Below are positions 1,069 through 21,120 of a stretch of DNA of 21,120 nucleotides, piece after piece. This DNA comes from a virus. The notes under the pieces were generated by a model. It worked only from the letters and a program-made list of their open reading frames with translations, did not search any database and was not told the origin of the DNA. The position numbers and the translations under genes are program-made. Within the stretch, counting starts at the first letter, position 1; each line of letters begins with the position of its first letter. Where the stretch lies: the IMG/VR virus record IMGVR_UViG_3300032309_001906, positions 1 to 21,120 of that record; one strand, 5' to 3'.

Positions 1069-1368
1069 ATGTCTGAATTTACTGAATGCCTCAAGGAAAG
1101 TCTGGCCGCTCTATACGAGCAAACTGGCACGGCCGCCACTATTGGATCTACAAGCGTTACTGGAATCTTGTCTGCAATAAGCCGAAAAGAGAACGTGGAT
1201 TTAGGCGGGTTTGATTTGGATTTAAATTCCACCTTTACAATCGACGTGGGCAACTTGGCCACTGCGCCAACAATCGGATCTATTTTGCGGGCAAACTCAA
1301 TCAGCTATCGGGTGGCATCCATTGATACTTCCGTTGGTAGTTACGTGCTTGGGTTGCGAGAGGTTTAG
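1069..1368 (+). CDS. Head-tail joining/connector protein candidate (gpFII-like)
   Basis: A 99-residue protein directly after the capsid gene. The N-terminus is helical (TECLKESLAALYEQTG), then comes a beta-rich region (TGILSAISRKENVDLGGFDLDLNSTFTIDVGNL) and an ending SISYRVASIDTSVGSYVLGLREV. The length, the mostly beta character and the motif of a locus that sets and reads a small property (PTIGSILRANSISYRV) are what one sees in small head-tail attachment proteins of the lambda FII kind. Position between capsid and tail terminator supports it, although a five-gene cassette now separates it from the latter. No Shine-Dalgarno site precedes the ATG; instead a GAAATCCTCT motif lies at 1058-1067. 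Alternative: another neck protein. Confidence 0.55.
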   Translation: MSEFTECLKESLAALYEQTGTAATIGSTSVTGILSAISRKENVDLGGFDLDLNSTFTIDVGNLATAPTIGSILRANSISYRVASIDTSVGSYVLGLREV

Positions 1369-1371
1369 AAT
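1363..1371 (+). repeat. Direct repeat GTTTAGAAT, left border of cassette
   Basis: The nine bases GTTTAGAAT contain the TAG stop of the connector gene and the start of the glycosyltransferase ATG. The same nine bases occur at 6039-6047, just before the tail-terminator start, and AGAG lies upstream of both. The pair brackets the five-gene accessory cassette and may mark how it entered the late operon. Confidence 0.5.
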
Positions 1372-3055
1372 GGCTACTCGAAATCCTAAAATCTCTATTT
1401 ACGCAATCGCCGGGCACGAAGCGCAATTCATGGAGCGCTTTGTAACGGCATTTTTACCATACTGCGATGAGCTGGTAATTTGCATAGCCCAGGGCGCTCG
1501 ACCTGACGATGGCACGCGGTCAATTGCCGAGAAGTCAGGGGCCAAGATAGTTGAATATAAAAACGCACCTGCAGGCGCGAGCTGGCCGCACGTCGACAAC
1601 TTTGCCGCCGCCCGCAACACCGCACTGGATGCCTGCACTGGCGACTATGCGGTATGGGTGGATTGCGATGACTTGCCACATAAAGACCTCAAAAACGCGT
1701 TTAAAAGGGGCGTAGAAGCGTTTGAGCAGAATCCCAAGCTCGGCATCTATGCTGGCGTCTATGACGTTATAAACGCCTCTTTACGCCCCGTACGCGAGAG
1801 GATGGTAAGGCGTATAGATGGCGTATGGTCTGGAAAGTGGCATTATGCGGTGCATGAGGCGCTGTTGCCTAACGCTGAGCTGGAATCTGTGGGCGAGCAG
1901 GCGGTTTGGGTAGAGCATCACCCTGGCGGATATAAGCCAAACAGCGCCGACCGCAATCTACGCATCTTGCAGGGCCAGTTAAGCGAGGCAGGCAAGTATG
2001 CGTACTACTACCAGCAGGAATTATTCCTAGGAAATCGCAGGGTTGAGTCGGAGCCGTGGTCACACGTTGCGGCCGTCTGGCCAGGGCAAGAGGCAACGCT
2101 GGCTTACGAGGCCGCATGCAATCAGGCCACAGCCACGCAAGATCGCAACGTTCGGATTGGCCTATACCAAAAGGCACATCAGATGAACCCTGGGCGCAGG
2201 GAAGCGATCTACTATTTAGCCAGGGAAGAGGCCAGCGTGGGTGCGTGGTTACAGGCTTATCACTTGCTCAAGTCTGCAATGGTTCAACCCGATCCTGGCG
2301 TTAGAATCTGGAACGCTCAACGCACTGTGTACGACTTTGAGTGCATCGATTTGTACCTTGCGGCCTGCAAAGCCGTTGGAGACACAACCGAAGCTCAAAA
2401 GATTGAAAAGATGTGGCGGGCACAGAAGCCGGTAAAGATTACCGTTTGCCACGCAACGCGAGGACGCCCACAGGAAGCCATCAACGCCCGCATCTTGTGG
2501 ATGAAAAAGGCGGCAGATCCAGCCTCAGTCGAGTGGATCTATTCAGTCGACGATGACGATCCTAAAGCCGACATGCTTAAAAATTGGGGAATAGTTAAAG
2601 GTAAGGGTGGGTGTATTGCCGCATGGAACAGAGCGGCCGAAGTAGCCCGTGGAGAGATTATCATTCAAGGCTCCGACGATTGGGATCCTCCGCTGCACTG
2701 GGATAAAATAATTAGCGATAGGATTGGAGATACCAGCAAGCCCAAGGTGCTGGCGATTTCCGACGGCTACCGCAAAGACGATCTGCTATGCATGGCAATC
2801 CTCACAAAAGCACGGCTGCAAGATCAGGGCGCCATGTTTGCCGCTGAATATGACGAATGCTCTGGCATTTGGTCAGATAACGAATTTTCTAAAAGAGCCA
2901 CATACGATGGCGTGATCATTCCAGCCAAGGACATCGTATTCACTCACAATAATCCGATCTTTACTGGCGCAGCGCAGGACGCGGAATTTAAACGCCACAA
3001 CGCCAAAGAGAACTATGAGCTTGGCGAAAAGATATTTAAGGAACGTAATCCGTGA
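1370..3055 (+). CDS. Tandem-domain glycosyltransferase (two GT-A modules with TPR-like linker)
   Basis: A 561-residue enzyme with two glycosyltransferase-like parts. The first (about residues 7-200) starts KISIYAIAGHEAQFMERFV and has a DCDD metal/sugar-nucleotide motif at 98-101, as in family 2 GT-A enzymes. The middle (about 255-330) is helical with repeat-like segments (YYLAREEASVGAWLQAYHLLKSAM) resembling TPR. The second module begins near 353 (KITVCHATRGRP), with VDDDDPKAD and GSDDW near 434-438 as a second DxD-type motif. The ATG at 1370 is preferred over an upstream in-frame ATG at 1322 because it falls two bases after the connector stop. It probably transfers sugars to a virion or host-surface glycan; donor and acceptor are unknown. 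It overlaps the next gene by GTGA. Confidence 0.75.
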   Translation: MATRNPKISIYAIAGHEAQFMERFVTAFLPYCDELVICIAQGARPDDGTRSIAEKSGAKIVEYKNAPAGASWPHVDNFAAARNTALDACTGDYAVWVDCDDLPHKDLKNAFKRGVEAFEQNPKLGIYAGVYDVINASLRPVRERMVRRIDGVWSGKWHYAVHEALLPNAELESVGEQAVWVEHHPGGYKPNSADRNLRILQGQLSEAGKYAYYYQQELFLGNRRVESEPWSHVAAVWPGQEATLAYEAACNQATATQDRNVRIGLYQKAHQMNPGRREAIYYLAREEASVGAWLQAYHLLKSAMVQPDPGVRIWNAQRTVYDFECIDLYLAACKAVGDTTEAQKIEKMWRAQKPVKITVCHATRGRPQEAINARILWMKKAADPASVEWIYSVDDDDPKADMLKNWGIVKGKGGCIAAWNRAAEVARGEIIIQGSDDWDPPLHWDKIISDRIGDTSKPKVLAISDGYRKDDLLCMAILTKARLQDQGAMFAAEYDECSGIWSDNEFSKRATYDGVIIPAKDIVFTHNNPIFTGAAQDAEFKRHNAKENYELGEKIFKERNP

Positions 3056-3816
3056 TTTACACCCACAACGCACTGCGCCTAGGCGACAACTTGATGCAGT
3101 TAAACTTTCTACGTCGGCTATGCCTGCAAAATCCAGATCTCGAGATTACCCACTATCACAATCCAGAGCTGTGCAAGTTTGAGGAGATTGATGCCTTGCG
3201 TAGCGACATGTCTTTACGGCTACGCATTCGACCAATCAGCGAAGCGCCAGCTGATAGTATTGATTCCTGGCGGAATGTAGGCGGGTATTGGGAGCGTCAC
3301 CCCGACAAATTAAACTTTGCCAAATTTCATCTATGTTGGTTTGAGGAACTGTCCAGCAGGATGTGCGTAAAGAATCCGATCCGGAAAGCCCACGATCTTC
3401 TGTTTGACTATCCAGCCCTAGATTCTTTTATTCCGATGGCGCCAGACTGCGACATTGTCGTGATAAATTCGCCAGGGCTTTCTGGACAATTTACAAACTT
3501 TAACCCCGACGATTTTCGCAACCTAGTATCTAAACTAGTTAGCAAGGGCCATCGCGTAATCAGCACAGTCGATACTGGATTATGCCCGGCATTTGATAAC
3601 AAGAATGTGACTTGGATCGGGGCGACGGCTGCAAAGGCTAAAGCCGTCATCGGAACATCCACCGGGCCGAGCTGGCCGTGCCTAAACGTTCATAACAAAA
3701 ATGCCTTCCATTTGCTGTGTGCAGATACAGAGACAGTCATATTTACCAAACGCGGTCAGATGGCTAGGAGCGCATTTCACGCCCTGCACATTCTTGAAGA
3801 GGAAGGCTTACTGTGA
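3052..3816 (+). CDS. GT-B-like glycosyltransferase (GT9/heptosyltransferase-like)
   Basis: A 254-residue protein that starts at a GTG overlapping the preceding TGA. The opening IYTHNALRLGDNLMQLNFLRRL is the LGD-type start of family 9 and related GT-B enzymes. Later come DIVVINSPGLSGQFTNFNPDDFRNLVSKLVSKGHRVISTVDTG, matching the second Rossmann half, and GTSTGPSWPCLNVHNKNAF near the end, similar to the C-terminal nucleotide-sugar loop that reads G-x-D/T-S-G-P in this family. It is shorter than typical heptosyltransferases (about 330). It is therefore read as a divergent or minimal sugar transferase acting with the preceding enzyme. Substrate unknown. A non-catalytic GT-B-like protein is possible. 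Confidence 0.6.
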   Translation: MIYTHNALRLGDNLMQLNFLRRLCLQNPDLEITHYHNPELCKFEEIDALRSDMSLRLRIRPISEAPADSIDSWRNVGGYWERHPDKLNFAKFHLCWFEELSSRMCVKNPIRKAHDLLFDYPALDSFIPMAPDCDIVVINSPGLSGQFTNFNPDDFRNLVSKLVSKGHRVISTVDTGLCPAFDNKNVTWIGATAAKAKAVIGTSTGPSWPCLNVHNKNAFHLLCADTETVIFTKRGQMARSAFHALHILEEEGLL

Positions 3817-4331
3817 AGAAGGAGCTGACTCAGGCGATGGACTTATTGGCGGCCGATCCAGCCGTTAGGTTTATAGGCTACGGGGTGAAGATAGGCGGCC
3901 GGGCGGCAGGCACGCTTAATAATGTTTCGGATGCACAACTGATCGAAACGCCTGTCGCTGAAAATCTGATGGTAGGACTAGCCACGGGCCTGAGTTTAGC
4001 CGGGCTAAAACCCGTCGTCTTTATTGAGCGGATGGATTTTATTCTCAATGCACTGGACGCCATCGTGAATCATCTAGGCGCAGCCCAGCACATTAGCTGC
4101 AATCAATTTAAGCCGGCCGCCATCTTGCGGGTAGTTATAGGAAACAAAAACAAGCCGCTCTACACGGGGCCAACCCATACGCAGGACTTCACCGAGGCTA
4201 TTAGGAAAATGATCGATTTTCCAATCGTCGAACTAAAGAAGGAAAGCGTAGTGAGCGAATATCAAAACGCACTGCACAGACTGAGCGCCGGGACATCCAC
4301 CATGCTGGTCGAGCGAAAGGATGAGTGGTGA
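3813..4331 (+). CDS. TPP enzyme pyrimidine-binding (PYR) subunit, E1-beta/transketolase-like
   Basis: A 172-residue protein holding just the PYR domain found in E1-beta subunits and transketolases. ETPVAENLMVGLATGLSLAG (residues 45-64) matches the E1-beta segment ETPISExGFxGxAxGxAxxG; Glu50 aligns with the glutamate that activates the thiamine pyrimidine ring. KPVVFIERMDFILNALDAIVNH follows, as in E1-beta. The usual C-terminal transketolase domain (about 130 residues) is absent, so the protein is a minimal subunit. Its partner is presumably the PP-domain protein at 5416-6030. GTG start overlapping the previous stop, with an AGAGGAAGG ribosome site at about 3798-3806. The reaction cannot be told; E2 and E3 genes are not present in the window. 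Confidence 0.78.
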   Translation: MKKELTQAMDLLAADPAVRFIGYGVKIGGRAAGTLNNVSDAQLIETPVAENLMVGLATGLSLAGLKPVVFIERMDFILNALDAIVNHLGAAQHISCNQFKPAAILRVVIGNKNKPLYTGPTHTQDFTEAIRKMIDFPIVELKKESVVSEYQNALHRLSAGTSTMLVERKDEW

Positions 4332-5419
4332 AGCAGAACAAGTACAGCGACCTTAAAATCTTTTCGTTCCCAGAAAAGATTGCCAGCTTTCGCGACGATA
4401 TTATCACCGCACCCATCTACGTGCGGATTAAGCCGACCAATATCTGTAACCACGCATGCCGTTTCTGCGTTTATTCTGACGGCACAACTCGGCCCAAGGA
4501 TCGGCCTGACTTGCACCTACAGGCTGGCATGCACACCAGCATGAACGAGCGGGACGTGATGCCACGAGATAAGGCGCTAGAACTAATAGAGGATCTTTCA
4601 AGCATGGGAACAAAAGCCGTCACCTTCAGTGGTGGCGGAGAGCCTTTGCTGCATAAAGACATTGTCGAGATTATGACTAAGACACTCTCGTCTGGGCTGG
4701 ATCTATCCATTATTACCAACGGGCAACTGCTTGCGGGGGAAAGGGCAGAAGTATTGGGCAAGGCAAAGTGGGTGAGGATTTCGATGGACTACACAAGCGC
4801 AGAGCAGATGTCGTCTAGCCGTAACGTGCCCGACAGATCGTTCGATTCCGTGATGCAGAATATAAAAAACTTTTCCAACACGAAAACAGAGAGCTGCGAT
4901 CTTGGGATTAACTTTATTATTACCCGCTACAATTATGAGGGACTAGTTCCGTTCGCTAAACAGCTCAAGGATTCAGGCGTAAGCAATGTCCGCTTCTCTC
5001 CCGTGTACGTGCAGAACTTTAAAGAATATCACAACACGATTGCCACCAGGGTGAGGGAGCAACTGGCCGAATGCCAATCCTTTTGCGACTCAGATTTTAC
5101 CATCAACACGACCTATGATTTGGATAGCCCAAGTAAATCGCCCGTTCGGCCATTCCATCGCTGTCTTTACGCTCAGGCCGTTTGCGTGGTAGGTGCGGAT
5201 CTTAATATCTACGCATGCCACAATACCGCATACAGCAATCACGGCCGAATCGCCTCAATGAAGAATCAATCATTTAGCCAAGCATGGTTCGGAGAAGAGG
5301 CGAGAGCATGGCATAAAAACTTTAACCCTGGCGTCAGTTGCCTGCACGAATGCGCAAACCATGCCAAGGTAGCGCTGTTTGAAAAGCTGGCTACCGATAG
5401 TCACGACGCCTTCGTATGA
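4328..5419 (+). CDS. Radical SAM protein with SPASM-like C-terminus
   Basis: A 363-residue enzyme. The cluster motif CxxxCxxC is at residues 40, 44 and 47 (ICNHACRFC), and the SAM-binding GGGEP follows at about residue 100 (VTFSGGGEPLLHKDI). The C-terminal third has further cysteines near 279, 284, 296, 337 and 341 (HRCLYAQAVC, YACHN, SCLHEC), the arrangement of SPASM domains that bind extra iron-sulfur clusters and often modify peptides or sugars. Two GTG codons are adjacent; 4328 is chosen because it makes the GTGA overlap seen with its neighbours, the other is 4325. It sits between the two halves of the TPP enzyme, suggesting a shared pathway. Radical chemistry on a sugar or on a peptide is possible. 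Confidence 0.85.
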   Translation: MKQNKYSDLKIFSFPEKIASFRDDIITAPIYVRIKPTNICNHACRFCVYSDGTTRPKDRPDLHLQAGMHTSMNERDVMPRDKALELIEDLSSMGTKAVTFSGGGEPLLHKDIVEIMTKTLSSGLDLSIITNGQLLAGERAEVLGKAKWVRISMDYTSAEQMSSSRNVPDRSFDSVMQNIKNFSNTKTESCDLGINFIITRYNYEGLVPFAKQLKDSGVSNVRFSPVYVQNFKEYHNTIATRVREQLAECQSFCDSDFTINTTYDLDSPSKSPVRPFHRCLYAQAVCVVGADLNIYACHNTAYSNHGRIASMKNQSFSQAWFGEEARAWHKNFNPGVSCLHECANHAKVALFEKLATDSHDAFV

Positions 5420-6030
5420 ACAAGCAGGATCTGATTAATTTTGAACTGCGCATTAAGGCGCTATTCGAGCAAGGCAAGCTGCCATATCTGATTCACCTAT
5501 GCGGTGGTAATGAAGATCAGCTCATCGAGATATTCAAAGACATAAAGCCAGGCGATTGGATCTTCTCAAGCCACAGATCCCACTATCACTATCTGCTCGC
5601 CGGCGGAGATGCTGACGTGCTCGAGCAGATAATTAGAGAGGGTCGCTCCATGTTTGTCTTTGACCGTAAAAAGAATTTCTATACGTCAAGCGTGTTGGCC
5701 GGCACTTGCGGGATAGCGGCCGGAGTGGCGCACACATTAAAAGAGCAGGGAAGCTCGGCAAAGGTGTGGTGTTTCTTGGGCGATGGAGCTGAGGATGAAG
5801 GCCATTTTTATGAGGCCGTAAACTACGTGGCCGGGGCGGATCTACCCTGCACCTTTATTATCGAGGATAACGATCGATCCGTGGATACGCCGAAGGCAGC
5901 CAGGGGAAAGGCCACGATGACTTGGCCTGATTGCGTCAAGCGATACCACTACACCCCAACATTTCCGCATGGTGGCGCTGGATGTAAAACCATGGTCACA
6001 TTTGATCCGTCCATTCGCCCGATCTGGTGA
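5416..6030 (+). CDS. TPP enzyme pyrophosphate-binding (PP) subunit, E1-alpha-like
   Basis: A 204-residue protein matching the core of E1-alpha dehydrogenase subunits. IFSSHRSHYHYLLAGGD (about 49-65) resembles the E1-alpha segment with R-x-H before the active site. The TPP motif is GDG at 122-124 (FLGDGAEDEGHFYEAVNYV) and the matching Asn at 152 in EDND, 27 residues later, as expected for GDG-x(25-30)-N. True E1-alpha proteins are about 330-370 residues, so this one is trimmed, like its PYR partner at 3813-4331. ATG overlaps the preceding TGA. Together the pair probably forms a compact two-domain TPP enzyme (heterotetramer is an inference). The last 30 residues diverge from the family. Confidence 0.8.
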   Translation: MNKQDLINFELRIKALFEQGKLPYLIHLCGGNEDQLIEIFKDIKPGDWIFSSHRSHYHYLLAGGDADVLEQIIREGRSMFVFDRKKNFYTSSVLAGTCGIAAGVAHTLKEQGSSAKVWCFLGDGAEDEGHFYEAVNYVAGADLPCTFIIEDNDRSVDTPKAARGKATMTWPDCVKRYHYTPTFPHGGAGCKTMVTFDPSIRPIW

Positions 6031-18731: not shown

Positions 18732-19012
18732 AGTCAGATTGGGCAACCGTTCTGACGGAGTATGTCGCCGGGCATCGGCAGGAAGTGGTGCCAGCTGGAT
18801 GGCTAACTAAAAACCAGATCGCCGAGCTATGGGGTAAGTCGGCAAACTACGCTAATAAACTCCTAGCACGATTGGTTGCAGATCGCAGGGCAGAGAAAAA
18901 AAGTTATGTAATCCGATTGCCTCACGTTGATTCAAGCGGAAAAAAGTTTCTAGGCCACTGCAGGAAGGTGCCGCACTACCGACTTATTGCGGGCAAATCG
19001 CCTAAAAGCTAA
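18713..19012 (+). CDS. Winged-helix/HTH DNA-binding protein candidate
   Basis: 99 residues, starting at an ATG with AGGAGG three bases upstream, inside the end of the phosphoesterase gene. GWLTKNQIAELWGKSANYANKLLARLVADRRAEKKSYVI (about 30-68) looks like a helix-turn-helix with a beta-wing after it. C-terminus is basic (GHCRKVPHYRLIAGKSPKS). A regulator of the late or early genes is possible. It overlaps the convergent RHH gene by four bases at the stop codons. Confidence 0.55.
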   Translation: MAVSSIKSDWATVLTEYVAGHRQEVVPAGWLTKNQIAELWGKSANYANKLLARLVADRRAEKKSYVIRLPHVDSSGKKFLGHCRKVPHYRLIAGKSPKS

Positions 19013-19152
19013 CGTCTATTTTGTTTGGCCAGCTCTTTAACGAGCAGGGTGGTGATATATGCCGAAAGGGATAATCCACTTTTTTTGGCAAGACGCTCAC
19101 CGTTGCGTTTTACTTTTGGGTCGATCGTAAGGTTTGTTTTCGCCTTTTTCAT
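19009..19152 (-). CDS. Ribbon-helix-helix protein A (minus strand), regulator candidate
   Basis: 47 residues, MKKAKTNLTIDPKVKRNGERLAKKSGLSLSAYITTLLVKEL...: a beta strand (TNLTI), then two helices (KVKRNGERLAKKSG; SLSAYITTLLVKEL), the RHH fold of CopG/Arc/ParD proteins. The upstream in-frame extension is hydrophobic and not included; this ATG is at 19152. Transcription would start about at the ATG because its promoter's -10 (TACAAT) ends 7 bases before it, so translation is likely leaderless. Its promoter holds a palindrome it may bind itself. It looks paralogous to the divergent protein at 19258-19419. Confidence 0.72.
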   Translation of the reverse strand: MKKAKTNLTIDPKVKRNGERLAKKSGLSLSAYITTLLVKELAKQNRR

Positions 19153-19159
19153 AGGGAGG

Positions 19160-19187
19160 ATTGTATGCGTAATAAATACGCATTCAA
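19160..19187 (-). promoter_or_regulatory. Promoter of RHH protein A
   Basis: On the minus strand TTGAAT (19187-19182), 16 bases, TACAAT (19165-19160), close to sigma-70 consensus. The -10 to ATG distance of 7 bases implies a leaderless or near-leaderless mRNA. Confidence 0.6.
19165..19183 (+). promoter_or_regulatory. Operator 1, palindrome ATGCGTA-N5-TACGCAT
   Basis: Perfect 7-bp arms with spacer ATAAA, occupying the spacer of the minus-strand promoter and touching its -10 and -35 elements. Expected binding site for a dimeric repressor, most simply an RHH protein. Confidence 0.65.
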
Positions 19188-19223
19188 GTTTAAAAAGAAA
19201 AGTTAATGCCCAAAAGAAAAGTG

Positions 19224-19258
19224 TTGCTAATACGCCGTGTGTGCGTAGCAAAGGCGTA
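19224..19258 (+). promoter_or_regulatory. Operator 2 and weak promoter of RHH protein B
   Basis: TACGC (19231-19235), 7 bases, GCGTA (19243-19247) is an inverted repeat, flanked by TTGC and GCAA, with a third GCGTA in GGCGTA at 19253-19258. A weak promoter may be TTGCTA (19224-19229), 16 bases, TAGCAA (19246-19251), ending 6 bases before the ATG. It mirrors the layout of operator 1. Confidence 0.5.
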
Positions 19259-19419
19259 TGCCTCGTCGTCCACTCAGCGGTTTAAAAGCGGAAAAGACAA
19301 ACATCGTTTTGCCCGTTGCGTTAAAAAAGGCATCACTAAAACTGGCCGCTGCCCGTCGCATTTCCCTTTCCCAACTCATCACCCAACTGCTTGCAAAAGC
19401 ATCGGGAGAGCCAAGCTAG
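19258..19419 (+). CDS. Ribbon-helix-helix protein B (plus strand), regulator candidate
   Basis: 53 residues: basic start MPRRPLSGLKAEK, then TNIVLPV (strand), ALKKASLKLAAARR (helix 1), SLSQLITQLLAKASG (helix 2). Aligned with RHH protein A without gaps from the KTN start, about 14 of 37 positions are identical by eye, and both have SLS...ITxLL. A different-frame reading at 19206-19592 over the same region has no such structure and is rejected. It is 5 bases before the excisionase candidate gene, possibly in one operon. Confidence 0.7.
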   Translation: MPRRPLSGLKAEKTNIVLPVALKKASLKLAAARRISLSQLITQLLAKASGEPS

Positions 19420-19425
19420 ATACTT

Positions 19426-19791
19426 ATGAGCTCGGGGCGCCTCAACGATACTTCCATGAAACTCCGCCAGGAGAACCGAGCTCTTTCCCTTCGCCAACTA
19501 GGCGCCGCTTACGGTTTGGGTTACGTTCGGATCAAGCAAATGCAGGCACTGCCTGGATTCCCACTGATCGCGGGAAAGGTAATTCCGTCTGATTTTGATC
19601 GGTGGAGGCTAATGCAGACTGGCCTAAGTTCACAGCATCGCGGAGATCGTCTACGCAGTGCCGTTGGTACAACTCATGCACTAACGTCGAAGAGTGATTC
19701 ACGAGTCTCATGGCAACGGATTGAGAACAGCCTGAAAGCCGCAGTCTCGTCACTCGGGTTACCCGAAGGGAGTGGAAGCAGTGACGTTTAA
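19426..19791 (+). CDS. Excisionase candidate (Xis-like), overlaps integrase
   Basis: 121 residues; the first 67 look real. RALSLRQLGAAYGLGYVRIKQMQALPGFPLIAGKVIPSDFDRWRLMQTGL has a helix-turn-helix like the MerR/excisionase family and the PGFPL...DFDRW pattern seen in small phage excisionases. The C-terminal 54 residues (after MQTGL) are antisense to integrase codons and may be a by-product of there being no stop. The second ATG at 19456 is an alternative start. It converges with the integrase, with 260 bases in common. Function would be excision of the prophage. Confidence 0.5.
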   Translation: MSSGRLNDTSMKLRQENRALSLRQLGAAYGLGYVRIKQMQALPGFPLIAGKVIPSDFDRWRLMQTGLSSQHRGDRLRSAVGTTHALTSKSDSRVSWQRIENSLKAAVSSLGLPEGSGSSDV

Positions 19792-20629
19792 GACCGCAAA
19801 TATCCAGCAGCCTGCGCCAGCAAAGCGAGGCTCGCGTGCGGGGAACCTCACAAGTCATCTCGCGTCCCTCGGCCTTCATTCTAGCCAGCATGGGTTCAAT
19901 AGCGGCCGGGATGGGAATGGAGAAGGATTTGCCAGCTCCTCCCTTGGGGCAGGGGAAGGTAAGGACGCGATTCTTCAGATCTACGCACTCAAGCGGGATC
20001 TGTGTTTCACGAAGTCTGCAGCCTGTAGCCAGGGCGATCTCGAAGCTGACTCGCATCCATTCGGGCACACCTTCCACAGCCAGAGCCTTCCGGGTAATTT
20101 TAATTTCATTGTCCGAAAAGACTGGTTTAACGCGGGCTATCGGGCCTCTTTTAATTCTGTAATCCAAAAGGGCAACGGAGTCCATTTTGCCCAGCAGTCG
20201 GCCTTGGCGGTAAATCCATTTAAGAATCTTCAGATCTTGGCAGGCTTGGTTCCTGCCCGCCTTGCCGCCGGACGTGCGGGGGAGGCTTTGGCGCCACTTC
20301 AAATAAATTTCACAATCGGATGGAGAAAACGCTTGCAGGGTTATTTTTTTTTCGATAATAAATCGCACAAGATGACGCCAGCAATTCCTGTAATACACTT
20401 TTGTCAGAGGGGAAACGGGATGATTCTCGATCAAATCCTCAACCCAATCGTGGCCGCTATCCGCTCGTTTTTCGTTGACTCCAATTCGAGCCGCTTCAGC
20501 CGTTGCCTTGGCGCGATGCAGGGTATTGTCGATTCGGTAGCGAGTGCTTTTTGTGCGCCACTTGCCCGTGGGATCTTTGAAGCGAATATAGAACCAAGGA
20601 TTTCCTTTTTTAACGTAAGAATATGCCAC
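19532..20629 (-). CDS. int: Tyrosine recombinase, phage integrase
   Basis: 365 residues. N-terminal arm-binding-like start (WFYIRFKDPTGKWRTKST, 12-29), core-binding domain about 60-150, catalytic domain from about 170. Catalytic set: Arg205 (ATGCRLRET), Lys at 229 or 234 in the beta hairpin, His286/Arg289 (HSLR), His312 (LVNHSS) and nucleophile Tyr321 (HELYQRH). It catalyses site-specific recombination at the attachment site next to it. GTG start; no clear ribosome site. C-terminal 44 residues after Tyr321 are somewhat long and coincide with the convergent Xis-like gene. Confidence 0.92.
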   Translation of the reverse strand: MAYSYVKKGNPWFYIRFKDPTGKWRTKSTRYRIDNTLHRAKATAEAARIGVNEKRADSGHDWVEDLIENHPVSPLTKVYYRNCWRHLVRFIIEKKITLQAFSPSDCEIYLKWRQSLPRTSGGKAGRNQACQDLKILKWIYRQGRLLGKMDSVALLDYRIKRGPIARVKPVFSDNEIKITRKALAVEGVPEWMRVSFEIALATGCRLRETQIPLECVDLKNRVLTFPCPKGGAGKSFSIPIPAAIEPMLARMKAEGREMTCEVPRTRASLCWRRLLDICGLKRHCFHSLRVTRVTRLRLSGCSQSVAMRLVNHSSTLVHELYQRHCVDDLRDAVNLGQSALASTDQNQTELPFPRSVGIQAVPAFA

Positions 20630-20630
20630 A

Positions 20631-20644
20631 GTTACAAGGGTAAC
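20631..20644 (+). promoter_or_regulatory. Inverted repeat GTTAC-AAGG-GTAAC upstream of int
   Basis: A perfect 5-bp inverted repeat immediately before the integrase GTG. Possibly an operator or an arm-type recombinase site. Confidence 0.35.
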
Positions 20645-20720
20645 ATTTGCTCAGTTTAAAGCAATAACACACAGCAACCATGCAAAGCATAATCAATCAA
20701 ATCGAAGAAGGAGATAGAAC

Positions 20721-20746
20721 CGTGGGTTCAAATCCCACCCCGTCCG
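20721..20746 (+). other. attP core: 3' end of a tRNA gene (T-arm and acceptor)
   Basis: GTGGG-TTCAAAT-CCCAC is a perfect T-arm (5-bp stem, 7-base loop) and CCCGTCC plus G is an acceptor 3' strand and discriminator. No 5' half of a tRNA is present upstream, so this is a tRNA fragment at a phage attachment site next to int. The tRNA identity cannot be fixed; a G discriminator would fit serine among others. Host CCA is not encoded here. Confidence 0.75.
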
Positions 20747-20937
20747 ATGCTTATCACTGCAACGACTTACGCCGAAACGGTAACACGGCGGTAATAACTG
20801 AGCCCAAAAAGGCTCACTACCAACAACTAAATTTAAATTCGCGGGGCGGGTACGATTTAACACCAGAAGCGTTCGTTTATCACCCTAACCCCGCCGTGTG
20901 CCGTATGTGGAACGCCCAGCACGAGGCCAGCAAATGA
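20722..20937 (+). CDS. Small phage gene starting inside the tRNA fragment
   Basis: 71 residues from GTG at 20722, with AAGGAGA at 20707-20713, eight bases upstream. An in-frame ATG at 20680 gives 85 residues but has no ribosome site. The first codons are the tRNA sequence (GSNPTPSDAY). The later text (GGYDLTPEAFVYHPNPAVCRMWNAQHEASK) has a clean coding look but no known family. The stop overlaps the next ATG. Confidence 0.5.
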   Translation: MGSNPTPSDAYHCNDLRRNGNTAVITEPKKAHYQQLNLNSRGGYDLTPEAFVYHPNPAVCRMWNAQHEASK

Positions 20938-21086
20938 TTTCGTGGGAAGTCATGCGGGATCTTGCGCAAGTATCGGCCTTAATCCTTGGCTGGCTATTGG
21001 CGATCGGTTGCGGAATCACCGGCCTGACCATTGGCGCGGTGATCTTTTTCTGGGTCGTAGATTTTATCCGCAAGGAGTTGCTGTGA
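20934..21086 (+). CDS. 50-residue membrane protein
   Basis: MISWEVMRDLAQVSALILGWLLAIGCGITGLTIGAVIFFWVVDFIRKELL contains two hydrophobic stretches (about 12-26 and 27-42), probably a hairpin, and a basic end. ATG overlaps the preceding TGA. Function unknown; small phage early membrane proteins often affect superinfection. Confidence 0.6.
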   Translation: MISWEVMRDLAQVSALILGWLLAIGCGITGLTIGAVIFFWVVDFIRKELL

Positions 21087-21120
21087 GCGTACGCGACCTA
21101 GAGCAAGAGGGCGTATTGCC
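21083..21120 (+). CDS. Partial gene running off the window
   Basis: GTG overlaps the previous TGA, AAGGAG lies upstream at about 21071-21076, and the reading MSVRDLEQEGVL runs to the end of the window without a stop. Too short to identify. Confidence 0.5.
   Translation, partial: MSVRDLEQEGVL

Follow-up and report, generated by a model that had tools for sequence, protein, structure and literature searches.

The main operon of this phage begins with ORF1, whose 5′ part contains the attachment core, and the order of the elements around the core suggests that integration would split this gene, so that only free phage DNA would carry it whole; we put the probability of this reading at about 0.68. 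The sequence analyzed here (the window) is a stretch of 21,120 bases that represents the whole virus record IMGVR_UViG_3300032309_001906 and is part of a phage of ~34-36 kb. The start codon, leader, and Shine-Dalgarno sequence of ORF1 are located on the side of the core that faces the integrase gene (int), and the body of ORF1 is located on the opposite side. Judging from this anatomy, Int would catalyze recombination between the 27-bp core and the 3′ end of a host tRNA-Ser(CGA) gene, and the phage copy would restore the tRNA. The ORF1 start would then remain beside int at one prophage end, facing host DNA, and the ORF1 body would sit behind the restored tRNA with no usable start. ORF1, and perhaps also the transcription that feeds the operon, would be off in the lysogen and would become active once the phage is excised or grows lytically.

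The leftmost gene of the window encodes a capsid protein and is followed by tail and lysis genes, a divergent pair of ribbon-helix-helix genes, the leftward int gene (19532-20629, minus strand), and a run of small rightward genes that is truncated at the right edge of the window. Int, a tyrosine integrase, matches phrog_1 (integrase) with an E-value of 3.6e-31 and PF00589 with an E-value of 9.1e-6 (26.0 bits, slightly below the Pfam cut-off of 27.1). One member of the ribbon-helix-helix pair (19012-19158, minus strand) is an Arc-like protein and a candidate lysogeny repressor (phrog_582 Arc-like repressor, E-value 5.2e-5), and the other, encoded divergently from it (19258-19419, plus strand), is ribbon-helix-helix-like (RHH_5, E-value 0.033, under the cut-off; phrog_582, E-value 0.13). 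Relatives of int were detected in 75 viral loci, with best segments 77-95% identical, and a tblastn search against phage GenBank records gave zero matches. A complete relative (G021) closes as a circle of 35,745 bases, in which nearly all genes from ORF1 through lysis point right and int alone is clearly leftward (ORFs were called by length only); ORF1 is thus the first gene of a single long operon-like run. ORF1 (85 amino acids, 20680-20937, plus strand) is followed by ORF2 (20934-21086, plus strand), which encodes a small hydrophobic protein, has a start that overlaps the ORF1 stop (ATGA), and has a relative in L181 (43% identity over 37 amino acids). Purifying selection acts on int over most of its length (pN mostly 0.01-0.1 versus a mean pS of 0.43). 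At the int 3′ end (19532-19624, codons 336-360), synonymous variation is near zero (pS 0.03-0.14) and non-synonymous variation is high, a pattern that would be expected if the opposite-strand ORF at 19426-19791 is a constrained gene there. Between the capsid and tail genes, the window carries a cassette (1322-6030) with a family 2 glycosyltransferase, transketolase-like halves (Transket_pyr and E1_dh), and a radical SAM protein, and the equivalent slot in G021 contains glycosyltransferase-like proteins and other genes (names judged by eye).

The attP core (20720-20746, plus strand) corresponds to nucleotides 47-73 of a tRNA and is identical to the 3′ ends of tRNA-Ser(CGA) genes of Verrucomicrobia. 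It comprises two bases, the T-arm, whose stem-loop can be read from the sequence as GTGGG-TTCAAAT-CCCAC (20722-20738, plus strand), the acceptor 3′ strand CCCGTCC (20739-20745, plus strand), and the discriminator G (20746). Among the relatives, 72 have a readable int start (L058, L066, and L074, in which this start is missing, were excluded from the count), and a tRNA 3′ end is present beside int in every one of these; the exact core 24-mer was found upstream of int in 64 of them, nearly always at a distance of -116 (-117 in L028 and -119 in L062), which is far beyond chance. The remaining eight include one with a single changed base (L043), one in which the core runs across the join of a self-closing contig and is located at its far end (L038), five with tRNA-Met ends, and one with a tRNA-Pro end. 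By searching genome contigs for the 27-mer core, 18 stretches were identified, 16 of which were called tRNA-Ser(CGA) by ARAGORN and two of which (L164 and L170) run off the contig end. Nine of these stretches are named as Verrucomicrobia subdivision 6, six as other Verrucomicrobia (including one Akkermansia), and three otherwise (Planctomycetia, Paceibacterota, and "bacterium"); the predicted target is the tRNA-Ser(CGA) of freshwater Verrucomicrobia, mostly of "subdivision 6".

Conserved phage genes, and no host genes, lie to the right of the core in all family members. Exact terminal repeats of 51-127 bp were observed in six of the ten long relatives compared, which implies circular maps with an intact attP, and in one relative (G026) the contig join itself passes through int and attP. 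Read in this way, the core is an intact attP on non-integrated phage DNA rather than a prophage end. The initial annotation of this DNA had also described an intact attP, with a T-arm and acceptor strand about 90 bases upstream of int (the T-arm starts 92 bases upstream), a GTG codon at 20722 within the T-arm, and phage-like genes on the other side, and had expected a match at a host tRNA 3′ end; all of these points hold, and the host genes to the right of 20746 that it named as the mark of an integrated prophage end were not found. Between int and the core lies a candidate arm-type site, GGTAACATTT (20639-20648, plus strand), which recurs in the aligned flanks, and to the right of the core a conserved flank (20747-20794, plus strand), which also codes for ORF1, may represent the P′ arm (GTAACA at 20780 and GTAATAA at 20791). 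GTAACA-like words are repeated on either side of the core in the alignment and are candidate arm-type sites.

Five of the loci with this host tRNA (L161, L164, L165, L170, and L175) were considered as prophages of the window's family and rejected, since a different sequence with GTGACAG repeats is located directly behind the same tRNA-Ser(CGA), which makes this tRNA look like an integration hot spot. No tRNA gene was called in the window, which is a phage fragment, and among loci L001-L160 ARAGORN made calls only in L079, a 260-kb viral contig in which the same 24-mer occurs near position 1243, downstream of four clustered tRNA genes and probably within an undetected tRNA-like gene.

ORF1 was compared in 70 distinct clade A sequences. 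A start codon (ATG in 66 and GTG in four) is present at -48 or -42 from the T-arm in every one of them, and the frame stays open from there through the core. Three segments of ORF1 may be distinguished: the leader (20680-20719, plus strand), which contains the ATG start and an AAGGAG motif (20708-20713) preceding the GTG at 20722; the core with the arm region to its right; and the body (20795-20937, plus strand). The body shows pN/pS values of 0.33, 0.24, and 0.11 in frame (three length classes) versus 1.39-7.9 in the other frames, which indicates that it is protein-coding and under purifying selection. Searches of ORF1 against Pfam and PHROG gave no match, and a role as excisionase or repressor was rejected for want of such a family match. 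The AlphaFold model of ORF1 is of low confidence (pLDDT 51.6) and mostly disordered.

Two start codons can be considered for ORF1 in the window, the ATG at 20680, 42 bases to the left of the T-arm, and the GTG at 20722 inside the T-stem. The initial annotation had chosen the latter and had proposed that in the lysogen, transcription of the completed tRNA reads into the gene and thereby expresses the first early genes. The Shine-Dalgarno data speak for this start: none of the 70 upstream ATG/GTG codons has a Shine-Dalgarno sequence at -5 kcal/mol or better, whereas 39 of the 70 T-arm codons do, with -8.8 kcal/mol for GTG 20722 on phage DNA, and the purine run that precedes the GTG in the host tRNA still gives -6.5. 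The leader codons are also free of amino-acid selection (pN/pS 0.90), and together with the missing Shine-Dalgarno sequence this means that the upstream ATG may not be the start, although several other genes in the window likewise have no Shine-Dalgarno sequence. On the other hand, the T-arm codon is GGG in five of the 70 relatives, which are the five tRNA-Met phages, and the T-arm GTG is out of frame in all eight clade B sequences, so GTG 20722 as the sole start was rejected as a family rule. The upstream in-frame start is kept throughout at 42-48 nucleotides, and no in-frame stop occurs in 39 distinct 12-codon leader segments. When the letters of 53 leaders were shuffled column-wise, about 18 of the 53 were expected to contain an in-frame stop versus none observed, no shuffle out of 2000 reached zero, and the starts numbered 31.6 instead of 53. 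The shuffle destroys the relatedness of the sequences, and its result is not a probability; a cruder mutational estimate of the absence of stops gave P of about 0.10, which is not significant alone. Judged from these patterns, translation more probably begins at ATG 20680, and GTG 20722 may serve as a second start in the window; the annotated gene start thus stands only in this second role.

The choice between the two starts is irrelevant to the main conclusion, because the ATG and the Shine-Dalgarno sequence are both located between int and the core, and with either start ORF1 would be beheaded upon integration. What the ORF1 body would meet behind the host tRNA can be read from the host loci. 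Each of the 10 host loci inspected has, in the clade A frame, a TGA after which no ATG, GTG, or TTG occurs until the T-arm GTG, and in the clade B frame, a TAA occurs three codons before the core in five of the 10. In the predicted RNA of the tRNA-phage junction, the T-arm GTG is mostly paired within the T-stem, with an unpaired probability of 0.23 versus 0.92 at attP, values that come from one window-based sequence with no control set. With the host TGA, no later start, and the GTG paired in the junction RNA, ORF1 is expected to be inactive in the lysogen, and the likelier effect of integration is that ORF1 is switched off, not on. The geometry of the initial annotation, with early genes behind the tRNA and int at the far end, is right, but we found no evidence for a coupling of tRNA transcription to these genes, the start signals of the phage being removed by integration, and we consider expression of the early genes from the tRNA unlikely.

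A second alternative is that the first ~40 codons of ORF1 are not a functional protein, that attP and its arms are open by chance, and that only the downstream operon matters. The relaxed leader and the mostly disordered model would fit such a situation, and the arm DNA is probably constrained by Int binding. However, the arm region to the right of the core shows pN/pS values of 0.47-0.54 in frame versus 1.03-1.39 out of frame, clade A sequences contain no further start to the right of the core until the last ~15 codons of ORF1, and two clades maintain the spanning frame in two different readings. We therefore regard a meaningless N-terminus as quite unlikely.

The second of these clades (clade B) has integrases that are 52-55% identical. 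A start is present 40-49 nucleotides to the left of the core in 8/8 sequences (L086, L095, and L157 are close copies), and the core is read in a different frame, as RGF[K/E]SHPVR. After the P′ arm, a reading frame of ~73 amino acids (L157, L091, and L104) is swapped with one of ~134 amino acids (L086, L097, and L181), and the coding of leader, core, and arm is unchanged in these loci despite the downstream swap. Clade C (L081, L096, L135, and L138, whose contigs measure 32-65 kb) has integrases that are 39-43% identical and the same tRNA-Ser(CGA) core, and was rejected as a third case of a spanning gene in 4/4 sequences, as the frame that reads into the next gene has no start within 250 nucleotides upstream of the core. 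Clade C thus uses the core with no spanning gene, implying that the arrangement is optional.

ORF1 is also maintained in a lineage that has lost the attachment site. A search for the ORF1 body yielded 80 viral loci; the T-arm is present in 74, three are truncated by the end of their contig, and the site is lost in the remaining three (L266-L268). In the latter, the equivalents of 19007-20250 and 20447-20794 are absent, which correspond to the ribbon-helix-helix pair, most of int, the leader, the core, and the right arm (the retained middle piece aligns from 20260 in L268). No PF00589 integrase domain was detected in any of the three contigs in a search that included positive controls, and two of the three have terminal repeats of 123 bases. 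The loss of int appears to be old, because these sequences differ from one another by 8-12% at the DNA level. All three keep the ORF1 body, fused in frame to a new start, suggesting that the product is wanted even with no integration and is probably not a recombination factor; we think that ORF1 is an accessory early lytic protein instead. We also looked for a promoter of the operon. Two weak sigma-70 consensus sites in the window are not clearly above shuffled sequences, none is present in L266, and a sigma-70 promoter was not accepted. The fragment at 20251-20446, retained in L266-L268, is a candidate promoter, and the dips in synonymous-site variation within it are modest.

Integrated copies were searched for in several collections. 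The family int was found in none of the 18 core-bearing genome stretches, and tRNA-Ser in none of the core-bearing viral loci. No close int was detected in the 17 genomes behind the core-bearing host loci, the best match in 62 genomes of the host order is only 55% identical, and no int was found at E ≤ 1e-60 in 387 genomes of the phylum, a search that had no positive match to show its sensitivity. Likewise, no attL/attR pair of a lysogen was found in these collections, which hold one genome per species. That the attachment site is vestigial and the phage no longer integrates, as this lack of a lysogen and the existence of an int-less lineage might suggest, is very improbable in view of the purifying selection on int, the exact match of the core to current host tRNAs, the switching of the target with int adjoining it, and the presence of the candidate Arc-like repressor.

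Such switching is seen in the relatives in which the core has been swapped to that of tRNA-Met (five) or tRNA-Pro (one), with the length of 27 nucleotides and the frame kept. Of the 62 genomes of the host order, 15 contain a match to the Met core and 11 a match to the Pro core, and ARAGORN analysis of 12 such loci called tRNA-Met(CAT) in 6/6 and tRNA-Pro(TGG) in 6/6. The integrase tree requires a single switch to Met and another to Pro (support of 73 for a single Met group), and no column diagnostic of the target was found among five Met and 12 Ser integrases. As nucleotides 47-73 of the tRNA always amount to 27 nucleotides (nine codons), the target tRNA could be swapped (Ser, Met, and Pro were seen) with no break in the frame.

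Several known systems resemble this arrangement. In mycobacteriophage BPs and its relatives, attP is located within the 3′ part of the repressor gene, and integration restructures the gene so that the prophage form is active (PMC4557955). This integration-dependent immunity also places attP inside an ORF and ties expression to the integrated state, but rep and int of BPs are co-directional, whereas the gene affected here, a first gene transcribed divergently from int, is not a repressor, contains attP in its 5′ part, and would be disabled by integration. The suicidal integrases of archaeal SSV-type viruses have a tRNA-derived attachment site that is translated in the protein, a gene that is split on integration, and tRNA targets that switch with the frame kept (PMC8371274), all of which is similar to the present case; there, however, the integrase itself is split, while here int stays intact and a neighboring gene of a bacterial phage would be split. 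Myxophage Mx8 has attP inside the int coding sequence, and integration gives int a new 3′ end (PMC6070905); a coding sequence altered by integration is common to both, but the core lies outside int here. In tRNA-dependent lysogeny, a tyrosine integrase likewise uses an attB that overlaps a host tRNA gene, but the core is short, and the host tRNA is lost and replaced by a phage tRNA (PMC10865867), whereas the 27-nucleotide core described here covers the tRNA through nucleotide 73. The arrangement works like these cases in principle and is a member of none, as the split gene is neither a repressor nor an integrase and loses its 5′ end. Among open-licence papers, we found none that describes an attP at the 5′ end of an operon's first gene, although differently phrased reports may have been missed.

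We tentatively propose that in two integrase clades, attP might physically switch a gene off and on, in that integration would unplug the start codon, the ribosome site, and possibly the promoter, excision would restore them, and the target tRNA could be swapped with the frame kept, a possibility that we hold to be somewhat less probable than not. The three tRNA targets beside integrases that are about 90% alike would represent a natural cassette set for the study of integrase target change. If the switch is real, integration alone would suffice to silence an early phage gene and excision to activate it, with no repressor needed for this step, and the concept of an attP within a gene, which now covers repressors and integrases, would come to include the start of the lytic operon.
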